DNA of 64,000 bases from contig NZ_PVZV01000001.1 of assembly GCF_002995495.1 (NCBI RefSeq), forward strand, positions 806,001-870,000, written 5' to 3'. Positions within the stretch are counted from its first letter, which is position 1; the number at the start of each line of letters is the position of its first letter. Both the position numbers and the translations under genes were made by a program. Shown one piece after another: positions 12,251-31,915 of the stretch. Source of the stretch: Actinocorallia populi. Its GTDB lineage: Bacteria; Actinomycetota; Actinomycetes; Streptosporangiales; Streptosporangiaceae. The notes under the pieces were generated by a model, which was not told the DNA's origin, did no database searches, and was given only the letters and a program-made list of their open reading frames with translations.

Positions 12251-13236
12251 GCCGCTCCTTGGTCGCGCAGGGCATGGGCGAGGTCGTACAGTCCGGCGAG
12301 GTCCATGCCGTGGGGCAGGAACGGCAGGTCGTAGCGGGGCTCGTGGGTGATGCGCGCCTTCTCCCGCTGCTCCAGCGCGTTGCGCAGGGCGTGCTCGGCC
12401 GCCTCCGCGGCGAGCGCGGCGGCGTAGTCGCCGGCGTGCTGCTCCAGCCCGGACGCCTTGAGCCCGCGGACGATCTCGTCCTGGTCGAGCTCACCGCGCC
12501 CGGCCGCGGCCAGGCCCTCGGCGGACAGGACGGCCGGACGCTCCATGTTGACGATGACGGCGCCGACGCCGATCCCGGTCTCCCCCAGGTCGTGGATGCC
12601 GTCCAGGGTCTCCTGGACGGGCATCTCCTCCAGCAGCGTCACGAAGTGCACGGCCGTCTGGGGGGAGCGGATGACGCTCATGACGAGGTCGCCGTGGTTG
12701 CGCACGGGGCCGACCTTGGCCAGGTTCGACACCTCGTCGCTGACGTTGAGGAACTGGCTGATGCGCCCGGTGGGCGGGGCGTCCATGACGACGGCGTCGT
12801 ACTTGAACTTGCCGTTCTTCTCGCGGCGGCGCACGGACTCGCTCACCTTGCCGGTGAGGATCACGTCGCGCAGGCCGGGGGCGATGGTGGTGACGAAGTC
12901 GATGACGCCGAGCTTCGTCAGCGCCTTTCCGGCGCGCCGGAGGTTGTAGAACATCTCGAGGTACTCGATGAGCGCCTCTTCGGTGTCGATGGCCAGGGCG
13001 AAGACCTCGCCGCCGTCGGGCGCGACGGCGACCTTGCGTTCCTCGTAGGGCAGCGGGGGCACGTCGAAGAGCTGGGCGATGCCCTGCCTCCCCTCGACCT
13101 CCACGAGCAGCACCTTCTTGCCGCCCGCGGCGAGTGCGAGTGCCAGGGCGGCGGCCACCGTGGTCTTTCCGGTGCCGCCCTTGCCCGTGACAACGTGGAG
13201 CCGTACGCCGTCCCAATCGGTATCTTTCGCGCTCAC
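12247..13236 (-). CDS. ArsA/GET3-like ATPase, first gene (329 aa)
   Basis: Walker A TGKGGTGKTTVAAALA (residues about 17-32), switch-I-like LLVEVEGRQGIAQLF and VVMDAPPTGRISQFL. It is shorter than its partner and diverges from it in the C-terminal half, which fits a heterodimer rather than a recent duplication. It is first of the two-gene operon and divergent from the SPFH gene with about 145 bases between. Confidence 0.9.
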   Translation of the reverse strand: MSAKDTDWDGVRLHVVTGKGGTGKTTVAAALALALAAGGKKVLLVEVEGRQGIAQLFDVPPLPYEERKVAVAPDGGEVFALAIDTEEALIEYLEMFYNLRRAGKALTKLGVIDFVTTIAPGLRDVILTGKVSESVRRREKNGKFKYDAVVMDAPPTGRISQFLNVSDEVSNLAKVGPVRNHGDLVMSVIRSPQTAVHFVTLLEEMPVQETLDGIHDLGETGIGVGAVIVNMERPAVLSAEGLAAAGRGELDQDEIVRGLKASGLEQHAGDYAAALAAEAAEHALRNALEQREKARITHEPRYDLPFLPHGMDLAGLYDLAHALRDQGAA

Positions 13237-13381
13237 ACTTCGAGACTATCGTTCGCCCTGCAAAGAGCTCCCGGGTGTTGGTAAGTGATTCCTGACTCGC
13301 TTTTCGCGGCCTAGTGTGGAACCGGGAACCGACATACCGCTGTCTGATATGAGGCACAGTCGCCAACGAGAGGCCCTCGTC

Positions 13382-14326
13382 ATGGAAGCACTCGTCATCC
13401 TGCTGGCAGTCCTCGTCTTCCTGTTGCTGATCGCCCTCGCCACGGGGGTCCGGGTGGTCCAGGAATGGGAGCGCGGCCTGGTCTTCCGGTTCGGCCAGAT
13501 CCAGAGGCAGGCGCCCCAGGGGCCGGCGCTCGTGCGCACCCCGGGCCTCACGCTCATCGTCCCGATCGTCGACCGGCTGCAGAAGGTCAACATGCAGACC
13601 GTGGCCATGGGCGTCCCGGGCCAGGACGGCATCACCTCCGACAACGTGTCCGTGCGGGTCGACGCGGTCGTCTACTTCCGGGTCATCGACCCCGGCAAGG
13701 CGATCGTGAACGTGCAGAACTACGTGTACGCCGTTTCCCAGGTCGCGCAGACGTCGTTGCGGTCGGTGATAGGCAAGGCGGAGATGCAGGACCTGCTCGC
13801 CGAGCGCGACAAGATCAACACCGAGCTGCGGGCGATCATCGACGAGATGACCGAGGGGCCGTGGGGCGTGCGGATCGAGCGCGTCGAGATCAAGGACGTG
13901 TCGCTGCCGGAGGGCATGAAGCGCTCGATGGCCCGCCAGGCCGAGGCCGAGCGGGAGCGCCGCGCCCGCATCATCACCGCTGACGGCGAGTACCAGTCGT
14001 CCAAGCGGCTGGCCGCCGCCGCGCACGAGCTGTCCAAGGACCCCGCCTCGCTCCAGTTGCGGCTGCTGCAGACCGTCACCGACGTGGCGGCGGAGAAGAA
14101 CAGCACGCTGATCATGCCGCTGCCGGTGGAGCTGCTGCGCTTCTTCGACAAGGCCTCGGGCGCCGCGGAGGAGGCCGAGGCGCGGCCCGAGAAGCCCGTG
14201 ATCGAGGAGCCCCCGGCGCTGGAGGAGGCGATCGAGAACCTGCCGTCCGTGCCCGAAGTGGAGGGAAAGTCGGGGGTTTCCGGCACCGAGGCCGACCCGG
14301 CCGTCCACAACCCCCGGGAACTGTAG
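13382..14326 (+). CDS. SPFH/stomatin-like membrane protein (314 aa)
   Basis: ATG 13382 (MEALVILLAVLVFLLL) is chosen because it opens directly with the membrane helix; upstream codons are not family-like. The SPFH core runs from about residue 25 (VQEWERGLVFRFGQ) through TSDNVSVRVDAVVYFRV to LPEGMKRSMARQAEAERERRARII, then a helical region and an acidic proline-rich tail. Members scaffold membrane microdomains and often regulate proteases. This slipin-type gene is divergent from the ArsA-like pair. Confidence 0.9.
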   Translation: MEALVILLAVLVFLLLIALATGVRVVQEWERGLVFRFGQIQRQAPQGPALVRTPGLTLIVPIVDRLQKVNMQTVAMGVPGQDGITSDNVSVRVDAVVYFRVIDPGKAIVNVQNYVYAVSQVAQTSLRSVIGKAEMQDLLAERDKINTELRAIIDEMTEGPWGVRIERVEIKDVSLPEGMKRSMARQAEAERERRARIITADGEYQSSKRLAAAAHELSKDPASLQLRLLQTVTDVAAEKNSTLIMPLPVELLRFFDKASGAAEEAEARPEKPVIEEPPALEEAIENLPSVPEVEGKSGVSGTEADPAVHNPREL

Positions 14327-15012: not shown

Positions 15013-15840
15013 ATGAACGGACTCAGACTTCCCGACGAGTTCCTGGAACGCATCCAGGATTTCGAAGCCGGCCGCAGGCAGCCCCCGGCCCTCAGGCACG
15101 CCTCCACCGTGATGCTGCTGCGGGACCGGGGTGGCCGGCTCGAGGTCTTCATGCTCCGCCGGACCTCCTCCATGGCGTTCGCGCCCGGGGCGTACGTCTT
15201 CCCCGGCGGCGGGGTGGACCCGAGGGACTCCGAGTACGACCAGCCCGGCGCCGACTGGGAGTCCTGGGGGGAGTCCTTCGGCGCCGACGCGAAGCTGGCG
15301 CGGGAGCTGGTCTGCGCGGCCGTCCGGGAGACGTTCGAGGAGGCGCACGTCCTGCTGGCGGGCCCCTCCCGGGACGAGATCGTCAAGGACACCGCCCCGT
15401 TCGAGGCCGACCGGCTGGCGCTGCTGGACCGCAGCCAGTCGCTGGCGGGCTTCCTGGACGCCCGCGGGCTGGTCCTGCGGGCCGACCTGCTGCGCCCGTG
15501 GGGGCACTGGATCACCCCGACCGTCGAGCTCAAGCGCTACGACACCCGGTTCTTCGTCGCCGCGCTGCCCGAGGGGCAGCGGGCGCTGGACGTCAGCACC
15601 GAGGCCGACACCGTGGTGTGGATCCGGCCGCAGGACGCGCTGGACCAGGTGAAGGCGGGGGAGATGGCGATGCTCCCGCCGACGATGGCGATGCTGAACG
15701 ATCTCGCGACGTTCGGCTCGGTCGCCGAAGTGCTCGCCCACCAGCGGAAGTTCGCCGCGCACCAGCCCACCGCCAAGATCGTCGACGGGGTTCCGTATCT
15801 TGTGCTCCCAGAGGAAGCCGAGCACCGGTATGGGGCCTGA
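15013..15840 (+). CDS. NUDIX hydrolase (275 aa)
   Basis: The Nudix box is present as an expanded form: GGGVDPRDSEYD followed about 30 residues later by AVRETFEEAHVLLAG, holding the metal-binding R-E-x-x-E-E. Enzymes with this insert hydrolyse nucleoside diphosphate derivatives such as CoA or NADH; the substrate is uncertain. ATG 15013 is preferred to an upstream TTG (14977), whose codons look like promoter sequence (TTGACT). The stop overlaps the start of the next gene by one base (TGATG). Confidence 0.85.
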   Translation: MNGLRLPDEFLERIQDFEAGRRQPPALRHASTVMLLRDRGGRLEVFMLRRTSSMAFAPGAYVFPGGGVDPRDSEYDQPGADWESWGESFGADAKLARELVCAAVRETFEEAHVLLAGPSRDEIVKDTAPFEADRLALLDRSQSLAGFLDARGLVLRADLLRPWGHWITPTVELKRYDTRFFVAALPEGQRALDVSTEADTVVWIRPQDALDQVKAGEMAMLPPTMAMLNDLATFGSVAEVLAHQRKFAAHQPTAKIVDGVPYLVLPEEAEHRYGA

Positions 15841-16733
15841 TGGGTATTTCACTGCGTGAACTCAAGATGGCGAGGCAGTTCCTGGCCGACCCCGCCGCCG
15901 CCCTGGTGATGCTGGGGTCGCACGGCGGGCTGCCCGGACGGCTGGCGGCCCGCAAGCTCCCCCCGGTGCGGATCGGGGGGACGGAGCGGGCCTCGGCCGT
16001 GCTCGCCCCCAACCCCTCACCGATGACCCTGGAGGGGACGAACACCTGGATCCTCGCCGAGCCGGGCGCGCGCCGTGCCGTCGTGGTCGACCCCGGTCCC
16101 AAGGACGGTCTGCACCTGCGCAAGGTGCTGCGGACCGTCCGGGAGCGCGGCATGGAGGTCGGCCAGGTCCTGCTCACGCACGGCCACCACGACCACGCCG
16201 CGGGAGCGCGGAGGTTCGGGTGGCTGGCCAAGGCGCCCGTCCGCGCCCTGGACCCGCTGCACCGCTACGGCGGCGAGGGGCTCAGGGAGGGCGACGTCGT
16301 GGAGGTCGGCGGCCTGGAGATCCGGGTCTGGGGCACCCCCGGCCACACCGACGACTCGTTGTCCTTCTGGCTGCCCGGCGACCAGGCCGTCCTCACCGGG
16401 GACACCGTCCTGGGCTACGGCACCACGATCGTCAGCGATCTCGGCGACTACCTGGACTCCCTGGACAAGCTCCGCGCCCACGCGGAGGAGAACGGCGTGA
16501 GCCGCATCCTCCCCGGCCACGGCCCTGTCCTGGAGGACCCGGTCAAGGCCCTGAACACCTACATCACCCACCGCCGCGCCCGCCTCCAGCAGGTCCGGGC
16601 CGCCATGGACGCCGGAGCCGAGACCCCCCGCGAGGTCGTCGAGATCGTCTACGCCGACGTCGACAAGGCCCTGTGGCCCGCCGCCGAGTGGTCCGTCCAG
16701 GCCCAGATCGAGTATCTCCGCAGCCGCTCCTGA
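15840..16733 (+). CDS. MBL-fold metallo-hydrolase, LACTB2-like (297 aa)
   Basis: Metallo-beta-lactamase fold with the zinc-binding motif THGHHDHAAG, the histidine in GTPGHTDDSL, the aspartate in LTGDTVLG and the late histidine in ILPGHGPVLEDP. The C-terminal helical region (THRRARLQQVRAAM, then WSVQAQIEYL) is typical of the LACTB2/Rv3677c subgroup, which in other organisms acts as a nuclease or thioesterase. Coupled to the NUDIX gene by a one-base overlap. Confidence 0.9.
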   Translation: MGISLRELKMARQFLADPAAALVMLGSHGGLPGRLAARKLPPVRIGGTERASAVLAPNPSPMTLEGTNTWILAEPGARRAVVVDPGPKDGLHLRKVLRTVRERGMEVGQVLLTHGHHDHAAGARRFGWLAKAPVRALDPLHRYGGEGLREGDVVEVGGLEIRVWGTPGHTDDSLSFWLPGDQAVLTGDTVLGYGTTIVSDLGDYLDSLDKLRAHAEENGVSRILPGHGPVLEDPVKALNTYITHRRARLQQVRAAMDAGAETPREVVEIVYADVDKALWPAAEWSVQAQIEYLRSRS

Positions 16734-17030
16734 GCGGCCGGATCCCGGTTTCCGCGTTCTTCCTCGGGGGTCGAGGCCCGCTTCGTAGCGCGTTCGTCTC
16801 AGGTGGATCCGCTGCGATGCCTTCGGTCATGGCCGCGTGGACCCGTTGACGTCCACGTCTCTCGGGACGGCGCCGGCCTCCGTGTTCGTCCTTCCGGCGG
16901 TGATCGCCGGGCGTGGGCGGGCAGGGGGAAGCGGCCTCGGGTGCGGGGGCTCGAGGCGAGGGGCGGCAGGGCCGGGCCAGCGGCGGGGAGTCGCTGGCCG
17001 GGCGGCCGTCGGGGAGTCTCCCTGAGGGGG
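16734..17030. other. Intergenic DNA between convergent MBL and crp genes
   Basis: About 300 bases. Two imperfect inverted repeats are visible around 16970-17025 (CGGGCCAGCGGCG and CTGGCCGGGCGGCC), which may terminate both transcripts. Nothing else is supported. Confidence 0.35.
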
Positions 17031-17717
17031 CTACTTGGAGCGCTTGCGGAGGCGCTCGATGTCGAGGATGACCACGGCGCGCGCCTCGATGCGCAACCAG
17101 CCGCGGGCCGCGAAGTCGGCCAGCGCCTTGTTGACGGTCTCCCGGGAGGCGCCGACGAGCTGGGCGAGCTCCTCCTGGGTGAGGTCGTGGTGAACGTGGA
17201 GGCCGTTGTCGCCCGGCTGGCCGAAACGCTCGGCCAGGTCCAGCAGCGCCTTGGCCACGCGGCCCGGGACGTCGGTGAAGACCAGGTCGGCCATCACCTC
17301 GTTGGTCTTGCGCAGCCGCTCCGACAGCGCCTGGAGGAGGGCGACGCCGACCTCCGGGTGCGCGGTGAGGAACGGGCGCAGCTCGTCGTGTCCCAGTCCG
17401 GCCAGGCGGCACTCGGTCACGGCGATCGCGCCGGCCGTCCGCGGCCGGGGGTCGAAGAGGGACAACTCGCCGAACATCTCACCGGGGCCTAGCACGCTGA
17501 GCAGGTTCTCCCGGCCGTCCGGAGCCATCCGGGTCAGCTTGATCTTGCCCTCGAGCACGACGTACAGCCGGTCGCCGGTGTCGCCCTCGTGGAACAGGCT
17601 CTGACCGCGGGCCAGCCGCACCTCGCTCACATGAGCGCGCAGCGCCTTGGTGGCCTGGTCGTCGAGTGCTTCGAAAAGCGGGGCCTTGTTGAGTACTTCG
17701 ATGTCGCGATCCGACAC
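17031..17717 (-). CDS. crp: Crp/Fnr-family regulator, Crp orthologue (228 aa)
   Basis: N-terminal cyclic-nucleotide domain (LARGQSLFHEGDTGDRLYVVLEGKIKLTR, PGEMFGELSLFDPRPRTAGAIA) and C-terminal winged helix (TDVPGRVAKALLDLAERFG, LTQEELAQLVGASRETVNKALADF). The sequence is very close to mycobacterial Crp, in the same position beside the MBL, Nudix and RidA genes. The GTG at 17717 is preferred: GGGAGGAG lies 8 bases before it, inside the codons that an upstream ATG (17738) would need. The stem R-P-R-T-A-G of the cAMP pocket is conserved, so cAMP binding is likely. Confidence 0.92.
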   Translation of the reverse strand: MSDRDIEVLNKAPLFEALDDQATKALRAHVSEVRLARGQSLFHEGDTGDRLYVVLEGKIKLTRMAPDGRENLLSVLGPGEMFGELSLFDPRPRTAGAIAVTECRLAGLGHDELRPFLTAHPEVGVALLQALSERLRKTNEVMADLVFTDVPGRVAKALLDLAERFGQPGDNGLHVHHDLTQEELAQLVGASRETVNKALADFAARGWLRIEARAVVILDIERLRKRSK

Positions 17718-21865: not shown

Positions 21866-23131
21866 TCAGACGGGATAGGTGCGGATCTCCGTGCTCTGCA
21901 CCGAGACCCAGACCTCGGCACCGGGGTCCGGAGCCAGCTCCGCCACCTCCGCCGGAGGGACGTCCGCCAGGACGCGCAACGGCCCGTCCAGCTGGATCCG
22001 GACGCGGTCGCCCTGCTGCTCCACGCCCTCGACCACGGAACGCCACAGGTTGCCCGGGACACCGCCGGGACGCTCGCGGCGGAGCGCGACGGCCGCCGGA
22101 GGAAAAGCGACGAACACCGGCCCCTCGGTCTCCTCGGCCACGTCCAGCTCCAGCCCGTCCCCCGCGCCGCCGGACGGCACGCCGTCGCAGTCCGCCGTGC
22201 CGTCGCCGGGTGCCGTGCCGCCACTGGACGTCGTGTCGCCGTCGGGGGGCACGCCGTCGCGGTCCGCCGTGCCGTTGCCGGGTGCCGTGCCGCCGCAGCC
22301 TGTAGTGCCGTCGCTGGACGTCATGTCGCCGCCGGGTGCCGTGCCGTCGGGCGTCGTGCCGTCGGGCATGACGCCGGGCGGCGCCGTGCCGGTCAGGGTG
22401 ACGCGGCGGCCGTGGCCGGTGCCGCGGTAGAGGTTGAGGCCGACGAGGCGGGCGACGTAGTCGGTGCGGGGGCGCCGGGCGACCTCGGCGGGCGTGCCCT
22501 CCTGGACGATCCGGCCCGCCTCGATCACGATCAGCCGGTCGCAGAGCACCATCGCGTCGAGCGGGTCATGGGTGACCAGCAGCGCCGCCCCCGCGAAGTC
22601 CGCCAGGTGCCGCCGCAGGCCCGACCGGACCTCGAGCCGCGTCCGCGCGTCCAGCGCGGCCAGGGGTTCGTCCAGCAGGAGCAGCTTCGGCTCCACGGCC
22701 AGCGCCCGCGCCAGGGCGACCCGCTGCGCCTGCCCGCCCGACAACTCGCGCGGCCTCGCCTTCCCGTGCCCGCCCATCCCCACCCGTTCGAGCCACCCCG
22801 CCGCCGCCCGCCGCGCCTCCCGCGCCGGAGTCCCCCCGCACCGGGGCCCGAACGCCACGTTCTCCACCACCGAAAGATGCGGGAACAGCAGGTAGTCCTG
22901 GAACACCATCCCCACCGGCCGCTCCTCCGCGGGCAGCCGCTCCAGGCGCTCCCCGTCCAGCTCGATCCGCCCCTCCTCCAGCCGGACCAGCCCCGCCAGC
23001 GCCCGCAGCACCGTCGTCTTCCCCGCCCCGTTCGGCCCGAGCAGCCCCACGATCTCCCCGGCGCCCACCTCGAACTCCACGTCCACCCGGAACCCGTCCC
23101 GCCGCACACCCAGCCGAGCCGTCAGCCCCAT
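21866..23131 (-). CDS. modC: Molybdate ABC transporter ATP-binding protein with repeat insertion (421 aa)
   Basis: ATG 23131 has GGAGGAGGG directly upstream. ATPase domain: Walker A GLLGPNGAGKTTVLR, Q-loop VFQDYLLFPHLSV, signature LSGGQAQRVALARAL, Walker B LLLLDEPLAALD, H-loop VTHDPLDAM. The C-terminal TOBE/Mop domain starts at NLYRGTGHGRRVTL and resumes at GLELDVAEETEGP, but about 65 residues of Gly/Thr/Asp/Ser-rich low-complexity sequence are inserted between, encoded by 72-base repeats. The ModA and ModB genes lie upstream, with a repeat tract of about 330 bases between modB and modC. The nearby nitrate reductase needs Mo. Confidence 0.92.
   Translation of the reverse strand: MGLTARLGVRRDGFRVDVEFEVGAGEIVGLLGPNGAGKTTVLRALAGLVRLEEGRIELDGERLERLPAEERPVGMVFQDYLLFPHLSVVENVAFGPRCGGTPAREARRAAAGWLERVGMGGHGKARPRELSGGQAQRVALARALAVEPKLLLLDEPLAALDARTRLEVRSGLRRHLADFAGAALLVTHDPLDAMVLCDRLIVIEAGRIVQEGTPAEVARRPRTDYVARLVGLNLYRGTGHGRRVTLTGTAPPGVMPDGTTPDGTAPGGDMTSSDGTTGCGGTAPGNGTADRDGVPPDGDTTSSGGTAPGDGTADCDGVPSGGAGDGLELDVAEETEGPVFVAFPPAAVALRRERPGGVPGNLWRSVVEGVEQQGDRVRIQLDGPLRVLADVPPAEVAELAPDPGAEVWVSVQSTEIRTYPV
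22176..22330. repeat. 72-base in-frame repeats inside modC
   Basis: Copy 1 begins at 22176 and copy 2 at 22248 (both start GGCACGCCGTCGC), with further degenerate pieces to about 22400. The unit is a multiple of three (24 codons), so the modC frame is kept. The encoded text is a Thr/Gly/Asp-rich linker in the middle of the TOBE domain. Confidence 0.75.
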
Positions 23132-23157
23132 GTCCCTCCTCCTTCCGTCGCCCGAAG

Positions 23158-23460
23158 TCCTCGTTCTTCCGCCTTCAGCCGCCGTCCGACCGGATGCACG
23201 ACCAGGGGTCCGCTCTCCGGCGTGTTCGTTTTTTCTCGACGTGGCCCGTGGTTCGGTCTTCGCCGTGTTCGTGCTTCCTCGGTCCGGCCAGGCGCCTGTT
23301 CCCCGACGTGTTCGTTCTGCCTGGCTCGGTCCGTCGTTCGCTCTCCGGTGCGTTCCTTCTCCTCGGGTTCGGCCCACGGCGCCGGTTCTCCGGCGTGTCG
23401 TTCCTCCTCGGGACGGGGAGACGTCCGTTCCGTCATGTTTCCTCCTCCTCGGGACGGGTC
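23158..23460. repeat. Degenerate tandem repeat of about 43 bases between modB and modC
   Basis: About seven imperfect copies sharing GCGTGTTCGTTCTTCCTCGG (starts near 23219, 23263, 23308, 23349, 23391 and 23437, with a weaker one near 23160). Spacing is 40-46 bases. No gene is supported, although a reverse frame stays open. The tract separates modC from modB inside what should be one operon. Confidence 0.65.
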
Positions 23461-24241
23461 AGGGGAGCCAGCGGTCCCGGAGGGTGACCAGGACGGTGAG
23501 GGAGACGGCCAGCAGGACGAGGCTGAGGACCAGGGCGGCTTCGGGGTCGGTCTCCAGGGCCAGGTAGACGGCGAGGGGCATGGTCTGGGTGCGGCCGGGG
23601 AAGTTGCCGGCGAAGGTGATGGTGGCGCCGAACTCGCCCAGGGCGCGGGACCAGCAGAGGACGGCGCCGGCGAGGACGCCGGGGGCCACCAGGGGGAGGG
23701 TGACGCGGCGGAAGACGGTCCAGCGGGAGGCGCCGAGGGTGGCGGCGGCCTCCTCGTAGCGGGGGTCGGAGGCGCGCAGGGCGCCCTCGACGCTGATCAC
23801 GAGGAAGGGGAGGGCGACGAAGATCTGGGCGAGGACGACGCCGGTGGTGGTGAAGGGGAAGGTGAGGCCGAACCAGGCGTCCAGGTGGCGGCCGATCAGA
23901 CCGTTGCGGCCCAGGACCAGCAGGAGCGCGACACCGCCCACGACCGGGGGCAGGACGAGCGGGACGGTGATCAGGGCGCGGGCGAGGCGGCGGCCGGGGA
24001 ACTCGGCGCGGGCCAGGACCCAGGCGAGGGGCACGCCCAGCAGCAGGCAGACGGCGGTGGCCAGGGTGGCCGTCCCCAGGGAGAGGCGCAGCGCCTCCAG
24101 GACCCGGGGTTCGGCGAGCCGGGCGGGCAGGGTCGACCAGGGGGTGCGGACGAGCAGCCCGGCCAGCGGCAGGACGAGGAAGGCCAGTCCCGCCGCGGCG
24201 GGAAGGGCCAGCATCCAGGGGACGCGGCTCCGCACGCTCAC
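23459..24241 (-). CDS. modB: Molybdate ABC transporter permease (260 aa)
   Basis: GTG 24241 overlaps the stop of modA in GTGA. The product has about six membrane helices and the permease EAA loop (EEAAATLGASRWTVFRRVTLPLVAPGVLAGAVLCWSRALGEFGATITFAG, shown here only as the family pattern E-A-A-x3-G-x9-P). FPGRTQTMPLAVYLALE near the end is typical of ModB. It forms the membrane channel for molybdate with ModC as ATPase and ModA as binding protein. Confidence 0.93.
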   Translation of the reverse strand: MSVRSRVPWMLALPAAAGLAFLVLPLAGLLVRTPWSTLPARLAEPRVLEALRLSLGTATLATAVCLLLGVPLAWVLARAEFPGRRLARALITVPLVLPPVVGGVALLLVLGRNGLIGRHLDAWFGLTFPFTTTGVVLAQIFVALPFLVISVEGALRASDPRYEEAAATLGASRWTVFRRVTLPLVAPGVLAGAVLCWSRALGEFGATITFAGNFPGRTQTMPLAVYLALETDPEAALVLSLVLLAVSLTVLVTLRDRWLP

Positions 24242-25002
24242 GGGGCTTCGAATCCGGCTTCGGTGAACACGTCCCGCGCCCGCTGCGACAGCACGAACGC
24301 GACGAATTCGGAGGCCGCGCCGGGGGAAGGTGCCTTCTCGAGCGCGACGATCGGGTAGTCGTTGACGGCCTGACCGGCTTCGGGGAAGGCGATGCCCCTG
24401 ACCCTGCCGCCCGCCGCGCGGATGTCCGTCCGGTAGACGAGCGCGGCGTCGACCTCGCCGAGGGTCAGCTTGGTGAGGGTGGCCTTGACGTCCTGTTCCA
24501 GCGTGACGGGGGTGACGTCGAGACCGGCGGCGGCCAGCGCCTCGGCCGCGGCGGCGCCGCACGGGACCTGTTCGGCGCAGAGCGCGACCTTGACGTCCGG
24601 GTCCGCGAGGTCCGCGAGCCCGGAGACCTTGCTGGAGCCGTTCGCGGGGACGGCGATCTCCAGCCGGTTGCGGGCGAAGACGGCGGGTTTCCCGGCCGCG
24701 AGCGAGGCGTCGGTGGCGGTCCGCATCGTGGCCTGGCTGGCCGAGGCGAAGACGTCCGCGGGCGCACCTTGGACGAGCTGCTGGGCGAGGGTGGCGCTGG
24801 AGCCGAAGTTGAACCGCACCTCGACGCCGGGATTGCCGTCCTCGAACTCCCCGCCGAGCCGGGTGAACGTCTCGGTGAGCGAGGCGGCCGCGAACACCGT
24901 GACCGTCTCGGACGCCTCGTCGCCCGGCGAGCAGCCCGTCAGGACCGCCGAAAGGAGCAGGAAGAGCGCGCACAACCGCCGTGGCCCCGGGGACCGCCTC
25001 AT
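24238..25002 (-). CDS. modA: Molybdate-binding lipoprotein (254 aa)
   Basis: Signal peptide with lipobox LTGC (Cys at about residue 23), then TVTVFAAASLTETFTRLGGEF, the ModA opening whose serine contacts molybdate, and VRFNFGSSATLAQQLVQGAPADVFASAS, the second oxyanion-binding loop. A late LVYRTDIRAAG and FVAFVLSQRARDVFTEAGF complete the two-lobed fold. Its ATG overlaps the upstream HTH-TOBE gene in ATGA, and its stop overlaps modB. Confidence 0.94.
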   Translation of the reverse strand: MRRSPGPRRLCALFLLLSAVLTGCSPGDEASETVTVFAAASLTETFTRLGGEFEDGNPGVEVRFNFGSSATLAQQLVQGAPADVFASASQATMRTATDASLAAGKPAVFARNRLEIAVPANGSSKVSGLADLADPDVKVALCAEQVPCGAAAAEALAAAGLDVTPVTLEQDVKATLTKLTLGEVDAALVYRTDIRAAGGRVRGIAFPEAGQAVNDYPIVALEKAPSPGAASEFVAFVLSQRARDVFTEAGFEAP

Positions 25003-25385
25003 TCGGGGACCTCCACGACGACGTTCGTGGACTTGATCACCGCCACGGCCAGCACGCCCGGTTCGAGCCCCAGCTCGTCGGCGGCCTGCCTGCTCATCAG
25101 CGACACGACACGGAACGGCCCGGCGGCCAGTTCGACCTGCGCCATGACCGTGTCCCTGCGGACCTCGGTCACGATGCCCCGGAACCGGTTGCGCGCCGAC
25201 GAGCGCCCCTCGCCGCCGGAGTCCACCTGCGCCCGCGCGAACGCCGCGAGCTCCCCGCCGTCGATCAGGCGGTGCCCGTGGGAGTCCCGCCCGGCGGCCA
25301 GCCGCCCGCCGTCCACCCAGCGCCGCACGGTGTCCGGGCTGACCCCGAGCAACTCGGCCGCCTCACTGATCCGGAACTCTGTCAC
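24999..25385 (-). CDS. HTH-TOBE molybdate-responsive regulator/binding protein (128 aa)
   Basis: Residues 1-55 form a MerR/excisionase-like helix-turn-helix (FRISEAAELLGVSPDTVRRWVDGGRL, HRLIDGGELAAFAR). Residues about 60-128 form one TOBE/Mop domain (SARNRFRGIVTEVRRDTVMAQVELAAGPFRVVSLMSR..) that binds molybdate. This two-domain protein is standard in actinobacterial mod operons and probably controls modABC in response to Mo. It is first gene of the operon; the promoter must lie in the 90 bases between 25386 and the erm stop at 25476. Confidence 0.88.
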   Translation of the reverse strand: MTEFRISEAAELLGVSPDTVRRWVDGGRLAAGRDSHGHRLIDGGELAAFARAQVDSGGEGRSSARNRFRGIVTEVRRDTVMAQVELAAGPFRVVSLMSRQAADELGLEPGVLAVAVIKSTNVVVEVPE

Positions 25386-25475: not shown

Positions 25476-26288
25476 TCATGTAAGACCCCGCCTTCTCCCC
25501 GGCAGGGCAGCGTCCCGCGCCGGAGGGAAGTGGCGCAGGAACAGGTCGGCCCACTGCTCGGCCACGAGGACCTTGGGCAGGGCGGACGGCGCCACCCCGT
25601 GCCGCCGCGTCCACTGCAGAGCCTGGTGGCGGGACATCTCCGGCATCGCGGTGAGGATCTCCGCGATGCCCCGTCCACGGCCCGTGAACACGCGCCGGAC
25701 GACGTCCTGGTACCGCCCGCGTGCCCGCGGCTGCACGAGAGGAAGCCGTCTCCGGGTGGCGGTCAGCAGCCCGCCGTCGACGCCGGGCCGCGGCCGGAAC
25801 GCCGAGGACGGCACCCGCTGGTGGAGCCGGAACTCGAACCACGGCCACCACTGCGCCGTCATCATGCTCGCGCCGCCCACTCCCGCGCGGCGCCGCGCCA
25901 CCTCCCACTGGGTGATCAGGACGGCGTCGGTCCAGCCGGGAGCGTCGAGGATGCGGCGGAGCATCACGGTGGTCTGGTGGAAGGGCAGGTTCCCGGCCAG
26001 CACGTGGGGTGTGGCGGGAAGGGGATGGCGCAGGAAGTCCGCGTGGACGACCTCCGCAGGCGGGCCGAGTCGGCGCGCGAGCCGCCGGGCCTGCCGCCCG
26101 TCGATCTCGACGCCGGTCAGCGGCCTGCCCAGGCGACGCATCGGCAGGGTCAGCGCGCCGTCTCCGGGGCCGATCTCGATGATCGGCCCTTCGGTCGCGG
26201 CGACGAGCCCGACGAAGGCGTCGATGACGTTCCGGTCGATGAGGAAGTTCTGGCCGAGCTCATGCCGGCCAGGGCGCTGGGTGTGCAC
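25476..26288 (-). CDS. erm: 23S rRNA adenine N6-methyltransferase, Erm family (270 aa)
   Basis: Opens with R-H-E-L-G-Q-N-F-L (SAM-site motif X), then EIGPGDGALTLPM (motif I), GVEIDGRQARRLARRL (motif II) and the catalytic N-L-P-F in LAGNLPFHQTT (motif IV), followed by the conserved AFRPRPGVDGGLL region and a basic C-terminal domain. RHELGQNFL and the actinobacterial-type C terminus mark Erm rather than KsgA. The enzyme methylates A2058 and gives macrolide, lincosamide and streptogramin B resistance. GTG 26288 has GGAG about 5 bases upstream. Expression is probably controlled by the leader and hairpins just upstream. Confidence 0.9.
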   Translation of the reverse strand: MHTQRPGRHELGQNFLIDRNVIDAFVGLVAATEGPIIEIGPGDGALTLPMRRLGRPLTGVEIDGRQARRLARRLGPPAEVVHADFLRHPLPATPHVLAGNLPFHQTTVMLRRILDAPGWTDAVLITQWEVARRRAGVGGASMMTAQWWPWFEFRLHQRVPSSAFRPRPGVDGGLLTATRRRLPLVQPRARGRYQDVVRRVFTGRGRGIAEILTAMPEMSRHQALQWTRRHGVAPSALPKVLVAEQWADLFLRHFPPARDAALPGRRRGLT

Positions 26289-26502: not shown

Positions 26503-27198
26503 TCAGGAGCGGAGCGCGCAGTCGCCGCACTTGCCGCTGCCGGGGACGCGGTAGTAGAGGCAGCAGGCGGCGCGGGTGAAGGAGGGGCGGCCGGGGACGG
26601 GTTCGGTGAGCCGGTGGGCGGCCTCGAACGGGGGCAGGGCGAGGATGCGGCGGGCCAGGGCGATGGCGTCGGCGGCGTGCTCGGGCCGCTGGAGGGCGAG
26701 GACCAGGGTGGTCCCGGCGAGGGCCGAGGCGGCGTTGTCCCACAGGAGCCGGGTGGGGATCTTGACCAGCCGCTGGAGCGGGACGGCCAGGGACTCCAGG
26801 AGGGCGGTGACGTCCCTGTGGATGACGGCGGCGGGATCGTCGCCGGCCGGGCGTACCTTCGGAGAAGGGAGCCGGAGCGGGAGGGGGCCGGTGGGGACGG
26901 CCTGTCCTCGGAGGCTGTCGGGAGTCCATTCCAGGACCCGGCCGTGCAGGACGGCCGCGCCGACGACGGGCGACCACAGGCGGGAGGCGAAGCCCATCTG
27001 GATGAGAGACGCCGCGACGCGGGGCTCGTCGATCTCGAGGAGGCCGAGGGTGCGGGCCAGCCGCTCCTCCAGTGCGGCCCTGTCGGTGAAAAGCTCCGCC
27101 AGCGGACGCCAGGAGGCGTCGCCGGGACCCGAGGAGAGATGGAAGAAGCCGCCGACCGCGGAGACGTCGTCGATGACTTCACGAAGGCCGAGTGGCAT
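26503..27198 (-). CDS. FhuF-like (2Fe-2S) protein under a cobalamin riboswitch (231 aa)
   Basis: The C terminus carries the FhuF-type cluster motif C-C-x10-C-x2-C (ACCLYYRVPGSGKCGDCAL). The rest is an alpha/beta domain like the siderophore-iron reductase family (VGAAVLHGRVLEW, LLWDNAASALAGTTLVLA with the conserved W-D-N-A). FhuF members reduce ferric siderophores in the cytoplasm. ATG 27198 follows GAGAGAGGAG by about 11 bases. No siderophore or B12 transport gene is adjacent. Control by cobalamin suggests the substrate may be a corrinoid, or a B12-linked iron function; that is inference. Confidence 0.8.
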   Translation of the reverse strand: MPLGLREVIDDVSAVGGFFHLSSGPGDASWRPLAELFTDRAALEERLARTLGLLEIDEPRVAASLIQMGFASRLWSPVVGAAVLHGRVLEWTPDSLRGQAVPTGPLPLRLPSPKVRPAGDDPAAVIHRDVTALLESLAVPLQRLVKIPTRLLWDNAASALAGTTLVLALQRPEHAADAIALARRILALPPFEAAHRLTEPVPGRPSFTRAACCLYYRVPGSGKCGDCALRS

Positions 27199-27209
27199 CG
27201 GCGTCGCCG

Positions 27210-27228
27210 CTCCTCTCTCGGGAGACCC
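27210..27228 (-). promoter_or_regulatory. Expression platform of the cobalamin riboswitch
   Basis: In the RNA, GGAGACCC of the B12 box (27265-27258) is perfectly complementary to GGGTCTCC (27228-27221), and the CTCC inside the latter (27224-27221) can also pair with the Shine-Dalgarno GGAG (27213-27210) across a 7-base loop. With ligand bound the B12 box is held in the core and CTCC can mask the ribosome site; without ligand the 8-bp pairing frees it. This predicts repression of translation by cobalamin. Confidence 0.6.
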
Positions 27229-27330
27229 GCTCCGACGCGTGGGAGGGCGCGAACAAGGGGTCTCCTGGCTCTCGGCTCCCCGCTCACAGCGGTGCCGCAC
27301 CGGGCTCGCACCGGCTCCCGCATCATGGCA
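27229..27330 (-). ncRNA. Cobalamin riboswitch (AdoCbl/B12 aptamer)
   Basis: The reverse strand reads, in order, the conserved aptamer blocks: CGGGAGCCGGTGCGAG, CCCGGTGCGGC, ACCGCTGTGAGCGGGGAGCC and the B12 box AGCCAGGAGACCCC (27270-27257). The GCTGTGA block and the GCCAGGAGACC box are diagnostic. The version is compact, with a minimal insert between GGGAGCC and AGCCAGG. It sits 30-130 bases before the FhuF-like gene and points to it. Confidence 0.88.
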
Positions 27331-27427: not shown

Positions 27428-29215
27428 ATGAAAGTCGCCGATTTCCTGTTGGCGCGGCTTCGGGAGTGGGGGGTGGAGCATGTCTTCGCCTATCCGGGAG
27501 ACGGGATCAACGGGCTGCTCGCGGCGTGGGGAAGGGCGGGGGACCGCCCGATGTTCGTGCAGGCCAGGCACGAGGAGATGTGCGCGTTCGAAGCCGTCGG
27601 GTACGCGAAGTTCACCGGACGGCTGGGAGTGTGCGCGGCGACGTCCGGGCCGGGCGGGATCCATCTGCTGAACGGGTTGTACGACGCCAGGCTCGACCGC
27701 GTTCCGGTCGTGGCGATCGTCGGGCAGACCGACCGGACCGCGATAGGCGGTTCCTACCAGCAGGAGGTCGATCTGCTGTCGCTGTTCAAGGACGTGGCGG
27801 GCGCCTACGTCCAGATGGTGACGGTGCCCGAGCAGCTGCCGAACGTGTTGGACCGGGCGATCCGGACCGCGATGGCCGAACGTGTGCCCACCGCCGTCAT
27901 CATTCCGGGCGACGTCCAGGACCTGGAGTACGTGAAGCCGGGGCACGAGTTCAAGATGGTGCCGTCCAGCCTCGGCGTCGCCGGTCCGTCCGTCGGGCCG
28001 GACGAGAAGGCGCTGCGGCAGGCCGCGGAGATCCTGAACGCGGGGCACAAGGTGGCGATCCTCGCCGGAGCGGGGGCGCGCGGCGCGGCCGAGGAGCTGC
28101 GGCAGGTCGCGGACCTGCTCGGCGCGGGAGTGGCCAAGGCGCTGCTCGGCAAGGACGTCCTCTCCGACGAGCTGCCGTACGTGACGGGCTCGATCGGGCT
28201 GCTGGGAACGCGTCCGAGCCACGAGCTGATGACCGGGTGCGACACCCTCCTCACCGTGGGGTCGAGCTTCCCGTACTCGCAGTTCCTGCCGGAGTACGGC
28301 CAGGCACGGGCGGTGCAGATCGACATCGACCCCAAGCAGATCGGGATGCGCTACCCGTACGAGCTGAACGTGGTCGGGGACGCCGCCGTCACGCTGCGGG
28401 CGCTGATCCCGCTGCTGACCCGCAAGACCGACCGGTCCTGGCGGGAGGAGATCGAAGCCGGAGTCACCCGCTGGTGGGCGGCCATGCAGCGCGAGGCGAT
28501 GGTCGACGCCGACCCCGTCAACCCGATGAGGCTGTTCCACGAACTGTCGCCGCGGCTGCCCGACAACGCCATCGTCACGGCGGACTCGGGATCGGCGGCC
28601 AACTGGTACGCCCGCAACCTGCGTTTCCGGGGACGGGTGCGCGGTTCGCTGTCGGGGACGCTGGCCACGATGGGCGCGGGGGTGCCGTACGGGATCGGCG
28701 CGAAGTTCGGCCTGCCGGAACGCCCGGTCATCGCGTTCGCCGGGGACGGGGCGATGCAGATGAACGGGCTGGCCGAGCTGCTGACCGTCAAGCACTACTG
28801 GCACACGTGGGCGGATCCGCGTCTCGTCGTCGCGGTGCTGCACAACAACGACCTCAACCAGGTCACGTGGGAGATGCGCGCGATGCAGGGCGCGCCGAAG
28901 TTCCCGCAGTCGCAGACGCTGCCGGACATGGACTACGCGGCCTTCGCCGAGGGACTCGGGCTGCTGGCCGTCACCGTCGACCGGCCCGACCAGATCGGCC
29001 CCGCCTGGGACAGGGTGCTGGCCGCGGACCGCCCCGCGCTGCTGGACGTGCGCACCGACCCCGACGTCCCGCCGATCCCGCCGCACGCCACGTCCGACCA
29101 GTTGAAGGACACCCTCAGGGCGCTTCTGGGCGGCGACGAGGACCGCTGGGGCGTGCTGAAGGAGGGGCTCAGGACCAAGGCGCAGGAGTTCCTGTCGCGC
29201 CTCGACGAGAGATGA
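27428..29215 (+). CDS. ThDP-dependent enzyme, pyruvate oxidase/acetolactate synthase-like (595 aa)
   Basis: Three-domain ThDP fold: pyrimidine-binding domain with FAYPGDGINGLLAAWGRAG and catalytic glutamate in ARHEEMCAFEAVGYAKFTG; central domain (LNAGHKVAILAGAGARGA); ThDP-Mg domain with GDGAMQMNGLAELLTV (GDG) and LHNNDLNQVTWEM. The long form with LPDMDYAAFAEGLGL resembles PoxB-like and related 'thiamine pyrophosphate-requiring' proteins rather than biosynthetic IlvB; no IlvN subunit is near. The substrate is probably pyruvate or another 2-oxo acid. Nearly 100 bases separate it from the ferritin-like gene. Confidence 0.85.
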   Translation: MKVADFLLARLREWGVEHVFAYPGDGINGLLAAWGRAGDRPMFVQARHEEMCAFEAVGYAKFTGRLGVCAATSGPGGIHLLNGLYDARLDRVPVVAIVGQTDRTAIGGSYQQEVDLLSLFKDVAGAYVQMVTVPEQLPNVLDRAIRTAMAERVPTAVIIPGDVQDLEYVKPGHEFKMVPSSLGVAGPSVGPDEKALRQAAEILNAGHKVAILAGAGARGAAEELRQVADLLGAGVAKALLGKDVLSDELPYVTGSIGLLGTRPSHELMTGCDTLLTVGSSFPYSQFLPEYGQARAVQIDIDPKQIGMRYPYELNVVGDAAVTLRALIPLLTRKTDRSWREEIEAGVTRWWAAMQREAMVDADPVNPMRLFHELSPRLPDNAIVTADSGSAANWYARNLRFRGRVRGSLSGTLATMGAGVPYGIGAKFGLPERPVIAFAGDGAMQMNGLAELLTVKHYWHTWADPRLVVAVLHNNDLNQVTWEMRAMQGAPKFPQSQTLPDMDYAAFAEGLGLLAVTVDRPDQIGPAWDRVLAADRPALLDVRTDPDVPPIPPHATSDQLKDTLRALLGGDEDRWGVLKEGLRTKAQEFLSRLDER

Positions 29216-29315: not shown

Positions 29316-29855
29316 ATGGCGGAGAACAGCTTCAGCCTTGACGTGACCGCGATCCGCGAGCGTGCCAGGGAGAAGATGAGCAGCGGTCCGGTGACCGAGT
29401 CCTACGGCAGGAGCACCGACCAGGTCATCGGCGTGCTCAACGACGTGCTGGCCACCGAGATCGTCTGCTGGATGCGCTACAGCCAGCATGCGATCGCGGC
29501 GGTGGGGATCGACCGCGCCCAGGTGGTGTCGGAGTTCAACGAGCACGCCGAGGAGGAGCGCAAGCACGCGATGCAGGTCGCGGAGCGGATCAGCCAGCTC
29601 GGCGGCAGCCCCGACTTCGACCCGGCGACGCTGGCGGAGCGCTCCCACACGACATACGAGACGTTCTCCGAGAGCGACCTGCGCGGGATGCTGCAGGACA
29701 ACCTCGTGGCCGAGCGGATCGTCATCGAGTCCTACCAGGAGATCATCCGCTGGCTCAGTGACGGCGACGTCACCACCCGGCGGATCATGGAACACATCCT
29801 GGCCGAGGAGGAGGAGCACGCCGACGACCTCCTCGACCTGTTGGGAGGTAAGTAA
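29316..29855 (+). CDS. Ferritin-like domain protein, bacterioferritin type (179 aa)
   Basis: A four-helix bundle with ferritin-type di-iron ligands: E in LATEIVCWMRYSQH, E and H in EFNEHAEEERKHAMQVAERI, E in LVAERIVIESYQEII, and E-x-x-H in ILAEEEEHADDLL. The N-terminal 35 residues (with REKMSSGPVTESYG) are extra and are seen in actinobacterial stress ferritins. A role in iron storage or peroxide protection is likely. It is followed after 3 bases by the PfpI-like gene, so the two are co-transcribed. Confidence 0.88.
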   Translation: MAENSFSLDVTAIRERAREKMSSGPVTESYGRSTDQVIGVLNDVLATEIVCWMRYSQHAIAAVGIDRAQVVSEFNEHAEEERKHAMQVAERISQLGGSPDFDPATLAERSHTTYETFSESDLRGMLQDNLVAERIVIESYQEIIRWLSDGDVTTRRIMEHILAEEEEHADDLLDLLGGK

Positions 29856-29858
29856 CTC

Positions 29859-30425
29859 ATGGCCAACGAACTGCGCGGAAAGGTGATCGCCTTCCTGGTC
29901 GCCGCCGAGGGCGCCGAACAGGTGGAGCTGCAGGAGCCGTGGCGGGCGGTGGAGGCCGCGGGCGGCAGGCCGGTGCTCATCGCCCCGGTCGACAAGGCGG
30001 GCGCCGAGGCCCAGCTCTTCCAGCACCTGGACAAGGGCGACCGGCAGCGGGTCGACATGCCGCTGGCCACCGCCGACGTCGCCGAGTACGACGCCCTGGT
30101 GCTCCCCGGCGGCGTCGCCAACCCGGACATGCTCCGCATGAATCCCGAGGCCGTCCGCTTCGTCCGGCGTTTCTTCAGGGACGGCAAGCCCGTCGCGGCC
30201 ATCTGCCACGCGCCCTGGATGCTCATCGAGGCGCACGAGGCCAGCGGCCGCACCCTCACCTCGTGGCCGAGCCTCCACACCGACCTGTCCAACGCCGGCG
30301 CCGCCTGGGTCGACGAGCCCGTCGTCGTCTGCGAGAAGGGCGACAACACCCTCGTCACCAGCCGCAAACCCGACGACCTTCCGTCCTTCAACGACACCCT
30401 CGTCAAGGTCTTCTCCGCCGCCTGA
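29859..30425 (+). CDS. DJ-1/PfpI-family protein (188 aa)
   Basis: Type 1 glutamine-amidotransferase-like fold: KVIAFLVAAEGAEQVELQEPWRAVEAAGG at the start (E19-like glutamate), YDALVLPGGVANPDMLRM and the nucleophile elbow VAAICHAPWMLIEA with the reactive cysteine followed by histidine. Members (PfpI/YhbO) act as stress-induced deglycases or chaperones. The close spacing to the ferritin-like gene suggests a joint role under oxidative stress. Confidence 0.92.
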   Translation: MANELRGKVIAFLVAAEGAEQVELQEPWRAVEAAGGRPVLIAPVDKAGAEAQLFQHLDKGDRQRVDMPLATADVAEYDALVLPGGVANPDMLRMNPEAVRFVRRFFRDGKPVAAICHAPWMLIEAHEASGRTLTSWPSLHTDLSNAGAAWVDEPVVVCEKGDNTLVTSRKPDDLPSFNDTLVKVFSAA

Positions 30426-30798: not shown

Positions 30799-31737
30799 TC
30801 AGGACAGGGCTCTGACGGCGATCTTCGTGGCTTCGGCGATGACCCGGTCCTCGTGGGTGCCGTCCTTCGCGGGTTTGTCGGAGAAGACGGCGAGGACGAG
30901 GGGGCGGCCGTCGGGGGACCAGGCGACTCCGACGTCGTTGGCGGCGGCGTACTCGCCGGTGCCGGTCTTGTCGGCGGCCGTCCAGCCGCGGGGGAGGCCC
31001 GCGCGGATACGGTCCTGGCCGGTGCGGTTGGCCCGCATCCAGCGGGTGAGCCGGTCGCGTTCGGCCTGCGCCAGGGCCTCGCCGAGGAGGAGGGCGCGGT
31101 AGCCGGCGGCCATGCCGGCCGGGGTGGTGGTGTCCAGGAGGGAGCCGGGGGTGACGTCGTTGAGTTCGGGTTCGCGGCGGTCCAGGCGGGTGACCGGGTC
31201 GCCGATGGAGCGGGCGAAGGAGGTCACCGCGGAGGGGCCGCCCAGGAGGTCGAGCAGTTCGTTGGAAGCGGTGTTGTCGCTCTGGAGCAGGGCGGCATGG
31301 CACAGTTCGGCGACCGTCATCCCGGAGTCCACGCGATTCTCGGTGACGGGCGAGTGCGGGACCAGGTCGGCCCGGGTGAAGCGGATCCTGCGGCCGAGGA
31401 GGCCGGAGTCCGACGAGTGGGCCTTCAGGACCGCGGCGACGGCGTAGGTCTTGAAGGTCGAGCACATCGCGAACCGCTCGTCCTGTCGGTGGCCGAGCGA
31501 CCGGCCTGTGCCTGTGTCGGCCGCCCACAGTCCGAGACGGACCCCGAAGCGCTTCTCCAGACGCCGCAGAGCCGTGACGCTCGCACTCATGTCCGGGACG
31601 GCCGCGGTGCTCGGCACCGGGCCCACGGGCGCGGAGGAACGGGCCGTCGCCGGTGCCGGGGAACCGTCCGGGCCACTGCAGGCTCCGGCGAACGGCACCG
31701 ACAGCAAGGCTCCCAGCACCGTGCGGCGTCTCAACAC
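30799..31737 (-). CDS. bla: Class A beta-lactamase, Tat-lipoprotein type (312 aa)
   Basis: All serine beta-lactamase motifs are intact: S-T-F-K (MCSTFKTYAV), S-D-N (LLQSDNTASNEL), E in RREPELNDV (Omega-loop Glu166) and K-T-G (ADKTGTGEYAAANDVG). The N terminus has a twin-arginine motif (RRRTVLGALLS) and lipobox FAGAC, so the enzyme is exported folded and lipid-anchored. GTG 31737 is chosen because GAGGAAG lies just before it; a GTG 14 codons earlier lacks a ribosome site. Such chromosomal enzymes are common in actinomycetes and hydrolyse penicillins. Confidence 0.93.
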   Translation of the reverse strand: MLRRRTVLGALLSVPFAGACSGPDGSPAPATARSSAPVGPVPSTAAVPDMSASVTALRRLEKRFGVRLGLWAADTGTGRSLGHRQDERFAMCSTFKTYAVAAVLKAHSSDSGLLGRRIRFTRADLVPHSPVTENRVDSGMTVAELCHAALLQSDNTASNELLDLLGGPSAVTSFARSIGDPVTRLDRREPELNDVTPGSLLDTTTPAGMAAGYRALLLGEALAQAERDRLTRWMRANRTGQDRIRAGLPRGWTAADKTGTGEYAAANDVGVAWSPDGRPLVLAVFSDKPAKDGTHEDRVIAEATKIAVRALS

Positions 31738-31915
31738 GTTCTTCCTCTTCCCCGGGTACGGCAAGCGCTCTCCGGACACGACGAGCGGGTTCCGGCGTGG
31801 ACGACCAATCTAGAAGATCGGGCACGCCCCCGTCCGGCGGTGTCCTGGCGTCCTTCGGGCGGCGGCCGTGCCGGAAAGGCGGAGAGCATGAAGGCCGAGC
31901 CTCTAATCTGAAGGG

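Follow-up and report, generated by a model that had tools for sequence, protein, structure and literature searches.

The window analysed here is a 64,000-nucleotide stretch of the genome of Actinocorallia populi, a soil actinobacterium. Its minus strand carries a gene for a FhuF-type [2Fe-2S] protein, preceded by a short leader that resembles a cobalamin riboswitch. The leader and the gene have the following features.

27257-27321, minus strand: shortened cobalamin aptamer (30.5 bits with covariance model R1; 17.9 bits with Rfam RF00174, below the gathering score; pattern unique in the window)
27288-27292, minus strand: putative L5 half, CCGCT, of an L5-L13 kissing loop (by eye)
27242-27247, minus strand: putative anti-Shine-Dalgarno (anti-SD) strand, CCCTCC (by eye; matches the CGCCTCCTC block of relatives)
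27221-27233, minus strand: putative P13/L13 hairpin GGAG-CGGGT-CTCC with the L13 half AGCGG (by-eye alignment with GGGGCGGATCTCCCC of class-mates)
27210-27218, minus strand: strong Shine-Dalgarno (SD) sequence, AGAGAGGAG (from the sequence)
26503-27198, minus strand: predicted FhuF-type [2Fe-2S] reductase gene, 231 amino acids (FhuF_C match, alignment, profile and AlphaFold model)

The probable start codon is the ATG at 27198-27196 and the gene ends at 26503 (minus strand); the open reading frame as listed, 308 amino acids long, starts at 27429, i.e. 5' of the aptamer. No corrin or siderophore transport gene adjoins the FhuF gene. About 215 bp downstream on the same strand (25479-26288) is a gene of the rRNA adenine dimethylase family (Pfam RrnaAD, 1e-32), possibly Erm-like, followed at 21866-25385 (minus strand) by open reading frames that by eye resemble a molybdate ABC transporter (ATPase, permease and binding protein) and a regulator that begins like MerR. 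Divergent from the riboswitch, and sharing with it an intergenic region of ∼230 bp, is a gene for a TPP-dependent enzyme, pyruvate-oxidase-like by eye (27428-29212, plus strand). A ferritin-like protein and then a DJ-1/PfpI protein are encoded at 29316-30422 (plus strand), and a beta-lactamase family protein at 30802-31779 (minus strand; Pfam Beta-lactamase2, 5e-46).

The aptamer (27321-27257, minus strand) comprises P3, P4/L4, a shortened L5, a short P6 and the B12 box in J6/3. The blocks GGGAGCCGGTGCGAG, GCTGTGA and GAGCCAGGAGACC, on which the initial annotation had based its proposal of a cobalamin riboswitch, are indeed found between 27319 and 27259 (minus strand), with the B12 box GCCAGGAGACC and the P4/L4 block in the correct order. 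The B12 box is not significant by itself, with one match in the window and at least one in 14 of 100 shuffles. The ordered core GCCGGTGCGAG...GAGCCAGGAGACC, with 20-45 bases between, has a single match in the window and is absent from all of 100 dinucleotide shuffles, and a looser aptamer pattern is likewise found once and never in 6.4 Mb of third-order Markov sequence (100 x 64 kb). In the Rfam check that had been proposed, RF00174 scores the leader at 17.9 bits, compared with a gathering score of 31.5 that nothing in the window reaches (E 0.018 for the 431 bases searched, 2.6 for the whole window). Rfam alone was therefore discarded as proof. Ten cobalamin riboswitches other than the window site, five of which lie at the C5 and C3 loci of the same genome, were used to make covariance model R1; it scores the leader at 30.5 bits (64 kb searched, E 1.7e-5), and the runner-up place in the window at 14.2 bits. 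Because of this score, the unique core pattern and the presence of similar leaders before genes of the same family elsewhere, we take the leader to be a probable cobalamin riboswitch. At 65 nt, the window aptamer is without the peripheral extension of full-length class-mates, and one J3/4 base and part of L5 are deleted. A short aptamer of 90 nt, possibly an intermediate form, precedes FhuF at the same position in Streptosporangium saharense (L198).

Leaders of relatives have a P13/L13 hairpin, GGGG(CGGATCT)CCCC, adjoining the SD, for which GAGAGGA is frequent, and a CCTCC anti-SD strand. The layout common to many class-mates is GAGCCAGGAGAC-TCACGCGGTCGCCTCCTC-N-GGGGCGGATCTCCCC-(A)AGAGAGGA-start, and in 38 of 39 parsed leaders, i.e. 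those captured by a pattern tuned to this layout and excluding the window, an L5 CCGCC is complementary to an L13 GGCGG. The arrangement would be that of the usual translational off-switch, and the window leader can be read likewise, its P13/L13 hairpin being assigned from the class-mate alignment rather than from an independent prediction. L5 (CCGCT) and L13 (AGCGG) of the window would form a 5-bp complement, but a run of this length is found in 14% of shuffles, so the complementarity is weak as proof of a switch. When the 3' part is folded on its own, the anti-SD strand pairs with GGAG at an energy no better than that of shuffles, and folding energies of the leader as a whole are not below those of shuffles and give no support. 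An anti-sequestor/SD-mask pair had also been annotated; GGAGACC can by eye pair with GGTCTCC, but relatives show a partly different layout. A scan for sigma-70-type promoters and terminators found none. By analogy with the riboswitch class, the B12-box strand would pair with the anti-SD strand in the absence of B12, leaving translation on; with B12 bound, the aptamer would close, L5 would kiss L13 and the anti-SD strand would cover the SD, turning FhuF off.

The predicted protein matches FhuF_C (PF11575) at 1.8e-8 (34.5 bits, cut-off 20.5) and has the cluster motif C-C-x10-C-x2-C at residues 212, 213, 224 and 227. It falls under the curated cut-offs of PF06276 (15.7 against 25.2) and TIGR03951 (38.3 against 63.85). 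A profile of its relatives matches the E. coli FhuF crystal structure (7QP5) at 1.2e-11, and an AlphaFold model (pLDDT 90), for which 26 sequences were aligned, has 7QP5 as its best match in a Foldseek structure search (ranks 1-2, E 9e-5, TM 0.66), followed by siderophore synthetases such as IucC with weak E-values. The predicted fold is thus that of FhuF, in agreement with the initial assignment.

At least 126 of the 150 genomes from the order encode proteins that match the family profile, weaker classical paralogues included; the genome of the window has one such gene among the matches listed. From these matches, 98 loci were taken by sequence score regardless of riboswitch presence and pooled with others, giving 107 evaluated copies. 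These had E-values of about 1e-51 or better among the matches listed, plus one copy from another search; left out were partial copies adjoining riboswitches at G050, G058:C40 and G069, a locus with a weak model match (L149, 20.8 bits) and matches with fewer than 150 aligned residues. L155 and L264 were excluded from alignments A4 and A5, respectively, because a stop interrupts their translation. Of the 107 copies, 29 (28 by script plus the window) have a riboswitch no more than 5 kb away, compared with ∼0.8 expected from random placement at the estimated riboswitch density, and 25 copies (24 by script plus the window) have it upstream on the same strand; the other 78 have none within 5 kb. The riboswitch label requires 25 changes when mapped on a tree of 172 rows, as opposed to 47 for shuffled labels; linkage is therefore clustered, yet its gains or losses have been numerous. 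The window belongs to a supported clade of four rows, three of them riboswitch-linked in different contexts (A, B and D below) and the fourth without a riboswitch. Among 80 named loci, a sample biased by having been drawn with riboswitch-linked queries, 34 have a riboswitch, including species of Streptomyces, Microtetraspora, Nocardiopsis, Actinomadura, Planobispora, Herbidospora and Mycobacterium. This recurrence in several genera suggests that the window gene probably belongs to the actinomycete cobalamin regulon. Chance placement in a single genome, raised earlier as grounds for refutation, was discarded as unlikely, because riboswitch and FhuF are found together again in other actinobacteria, accompanied by genes for corrin or cobalt transport; the pattern controls are also empty.

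Linked FhuF genes are found in four contexts. In the simplest (A), the riboswitch directly precedes FhuF, as in the window and in L030, L071, L074, L075, L083, L086, L096 and L198; a gene for a Cys-rich ferredoxin-like protein follows FhuF in L030, L071, L083, L086, L096 and L198, and precedes it in L250 and L264. In context B, the order is riboswitch, ferredoxin-like gene (in some), substrate-binding protein (SBP), permease, ATPase and FhuF (L032, L076, L105, L113-L116, L129, L130, L135, L140, L143, L146, L155 and many named loci). The SBP is the sole gene found between riboswitch and FhuF in L121, and Sinosporangium album (L031) encodes an ATPase-FhuF fusion protein. In context C, FhuF adjoins a riboswitch-led cbtBA pair in nine genomes (L035, L036, L037, L093 = L246, L103, L124, L262, L272 and L274). 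In L272 riboswitch, cbtB, cbtA and FhuF lie on one strand; an apparent cbtA/FhuF overlap from tblastn read-through was ruled out, as the sequence has a 17-nt gap. Context D, riboswitch-metE-FhuF, is seen in Actinocorallia sp. API 0066 (L033/L203). Three cobalamin riboswitches within 7 kb were observed in Herbidospora cretacea (L130 4020-11181, = L224), where they precede a ferredoxin-like gene, an SBP-permease-ATPase-FhuF operon and metE.

The importers encoded with FhuF are BtuFCD/FecBCD-like and have permeases of two distinct clades; B12 control is therefore the constant partner. That no corrin transport gene stands beside the window FhuF, as had been remarked, is true locally, but two riboswitch-led importer operons lie on other contigs of the same genome and many relatives have FhuF within such operons. 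One of the two (L028) has the order riboswitch, ferredoxin-like gene, SBP, permease and ATPase without FhuF, and the other (L029) is a BtuFCD-CbiZ operon; the lone window FhuF thus looks like a detached member of the set. In L028, the genes at 13330-14316, 12257-13333 and 11448-12260 (minus strand) are nearest to, but below the cut-offs of, NCBIfam TIGR03868/03869/03873 ('putative F420-0 ABC transporter'), and because of the riboswitch control, relatives of this set may be corrinoid or cobalt importers. Divergent from the L028 operon is a gene for a PepSY_TM membrane protein (15829-17118, plus strand). A PepSY protein is also encoded near an operon on S. meliloti plasmid pEm1132b (L280 3592-6944), in which cobalamin-riboswitch-like motifs, recognised by pattern only, precede DUF1636, ATPase, SBP and permease genes, the permease being 47% identical to that of L028. 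The ferredoxin-like open reading frame belongs to no Pfam or NCBIfam family and has no convincing match in a PDB search; its match to the S. meliloti DUF1636 protein (E 0.0013, probability 18%) is a mere hint.

Iron control was sought as DmdR/IdeR-type iron boxes in 350 bp upstream of 191 copies of the subfamily (65 riboswitch-linked and 126 not; 171 distinct proteins, some genomes being present in two sets). No box (at least 14/19) was found in any of the 191 regions, the window included, although the scan is weak for genes that are not first in an operon, where the 350 bp falls inside the preceding gene. In classical FhuF paralogues of the same order, hand-picked from weaker matches listed and thus non-random, an iron box (at least 15) is present in 9 of 17, each within 170 bp of the match start, which doubles as positive control of the scan.

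The relation to B12 synthesis was followed with CobJ as proxy. Of 123 genomes with CobJ, 23 have a riboswitch-linked FhuF among the matches listed; none of the 27 genomes that lack CobJ has one (Fisher p 0.015, which ignores kinship). The 23 genomes were listed by hand; they include four in which the riboswitch is adjacent, not upstream on the same strand (G025, G140, G146 and G171), and one whose copy has a stop in the translated stretch (G105, L155). All 27 genomes without CobJ have B12 riboswitches. Strong FhuF copies (E <1e-50) without a riboswitch near are present in 12 of them and weak matches or none in the other 15, again among the matches listed; FhuF places were matched to riboswitches by eye, and the weakest FhuF matches lie outside the listing. 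FhuF is therefore neither confined to B12 makers nor required by all B12 users. Four of the genomes without CobJ (G070, G082, G083 and G135) have riboswitch-led importers of the same broad type without FhuF, and a fifth (G107) has one of type I. These importers probably carry corrinoids, and for this reason the B12-controlled FhuF seems to be tied to de novo synthesis more than to uptake as such. In a comparison paired by eye, riboswitch-led permeases 77-82% identical to that of the window's own genome were seen in 3 of the 26 other makers that were sampled and in none of 27 non-makers, and a 55-61% type without FhuF occurs in both makers and non-makers. Known cobalt transporters, of which CbtA and CbiM were compared, were discarded as being complementary to FhuF: no difference was seen between 20 genomes that have riboswitch-linked FhuF and 20 makers that lack it. 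CbtA is absent from 6 and 8 of these, respectively, so FhuF is no stand-in for CbtA, and because the comparison is even, it leaves the choice between a corrinoid and a cobalt-chelate substrate undecided.

Starting from the family and fold, the recurrent riboswitch linkage, the operon partners, the absence of iron boxes and the occurrence of linked copies only in CobJ genomes of the sample, all of which were observed, our tentative first choice, short of an even chance, is that the window encodes a B12-repressed FhuF-fold [2Fe-2S] reductase of the actinomycete cobalamin regulon that acts on corrinoid cobalt. This branch of FhuF probably handles cobalt, not iron, because it is often under B12 riboswitches and adjoins genes for B12 or cobalt uptake. 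The initial suggestion that the protein reduces or takes up corrinoids or cobalt is plausible. In the scheme that we infer, for ligand response, electron donor and substrate alike, FhuF would transfer electrons one at a time to corrinoid cobalt, with the small ferredoxin-like partner as a possible donor; it would serve corrinoids both made de novo and imported, reducing Co(III) to Co(II) and possibly on to Co(I) for adenosylation. The gene contexts are best accounted for by a corrinoid reductase, as import of cobalt, import of corrinoids and de novo synthesis all yield corrinoids that need reduction before adenosylation. Against this first choice stand the 78 of 107 copies with no riboswitch nearby, the uneven presence of FhuF in genomes without CobJ, the reduced window aptamer and a potential of about -0.36 V, which is high for the Co(II)/Co(I) couple.

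We give a somewhat lower probability, in the range of the unlikely, to a cobalt-chelate reductase: the importers would bring in a Co(III)-siderophore-like chelate, and FhuF would release Co(II) at the inner mouth of the importer, as classical FhuF does with iron. FhuF genes joined to importers suit this as well as they suit a corrinoid reductase, and the importer operons, including the ATPase-FhuF fusion of L031, are best explained by it. The restriction of linked copies to CobJ genomes and of own-genome-like permeases to makers is also in its favour, as is the precedent of CbtJKL of Sinorhizobium meliloti, initially taken to be a B12 importer, which transports cobalt (PMC7689651). The cbtBA neighbourhood in nine genomes, in some a shared operon, brings FhuF close to cobalt import, but these contexts fit less well, as CbtAB imports cobalt ion and requires no reductase, and the CbtA counts show no replacement by FhuF. 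In the literature searched, no paper mentions cobalt, siderophore and cobaltophore together.

Compatible with any role of the gene is that the window leader is a decaying remnant that has lost B12 binding, which we consider doubtful. Its score under the Rfam cut-off, the J3/4 and L5 deletions, the loss of the peripheral domain and fold energies that do not beat shuffles point this way; against this, the B12 box, P4/L4, the SD and the possible 5-bp L5-L13 match are all retained, and the best named homologue (51%), that of S. saharense, likewise has a short aptamer before FhuF. An ordinary ferric-siderophore reductase under B12 control by happenstance, in line with the cobalamin-iron link considered initially, shares the fold and cluster motif of E. 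coli FhuF and the FecBCD/BtuFCD superfamily of the importers, but is very improbable: no iron box was found before any of 191 copies, compared with 9 of 17 classical paralogues that have one, and B12 riboswitches and cobalt-gene neighbours recur.

For the FhuF-type actinomycete branch as a whole, some members of which are annotated '(2Fe-2S)-binding protein', the balance tips slightly towards a dedicated B12-repressed cobalt reductase, for corrinoids or cobalt chelates, that would feed B12 synthesis together with the ferredoxin-like protein and B12-repressed importers. FhuF-type proteins and cobalamin riboswitches are each known; their combination was not found in the literature searched, in which one paper mentions both, but separately. 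Nor was a B12-riboswitch-linked FhuF branch without iron boxes found in the open literature, although subscription papers, e.g. the 2003 B12-regulon survey, may mention one. If the reading is correct, the FhuF family splits by metal into an iron branch with iron boxes and a cobalt branch with B12 riboswitches, and FhuF genes of the cobalt type may carry wrong annotations as iron genes. In aerobic B12 metabolism, the enzyme of a reductase step is uncertain in many bacteria, and the cobalt branch would be a candidate for this step or for cobalt release from imported chelates. The FecBCD/BtuFCD-like importers, the ferredoxin-like family and the FhuF clade are marked as a set worth direct testing.

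Several known systems can be set beside the window locus. CobR is a flavin-dependent reductase (PMC8123684); it and other corrinoid reductases resemble the window FhuF in the proposed reaction only. CbtJKL and BtuFCD are of the same superfamily as the FhuF-linked SBP, permease and ATPase and are also riboswitch-led. Identity to the presumed pSymB CbtJKL is 27/43/46%; the latter was identified by place and riboswitch motifs, as the record carries no annotation, within a region (62-80 kb) holding a riboswitch-like motif and an SBP-permease-ATPase stretch, and this 18-kb stretch has no FhuF match. Compared with full-length class-mates of RF00174, which score up to 101.5 bits, the window leader shares the B12 box, P4/L4, the element order and the downstream layout, and differs in its length of 65 nt, the missing peripheral domain, its sub-gathering score and its control of a FhuF-type gene. 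E. coli FhuF (7QP5; TIGR03951), a ferric-siderophore reductase with a C-C-x10-C-x2-C motif and a potential of about -0.36 V at pH 7.4 (PMC8068687), shares with the window protein the predicted fold and the same C-terminal motif at 16% identity in the structural alignment. Unlike E. coli FhuF, the window protein is under the TIGR03951 and Pfam FhuF cut-offs, and its subfamily has no detected iron box, a C-terminal signature CCLYYRVPxxGKCGDC, B12-riboswitch linkage and cobalt or corrinoid gene partners.
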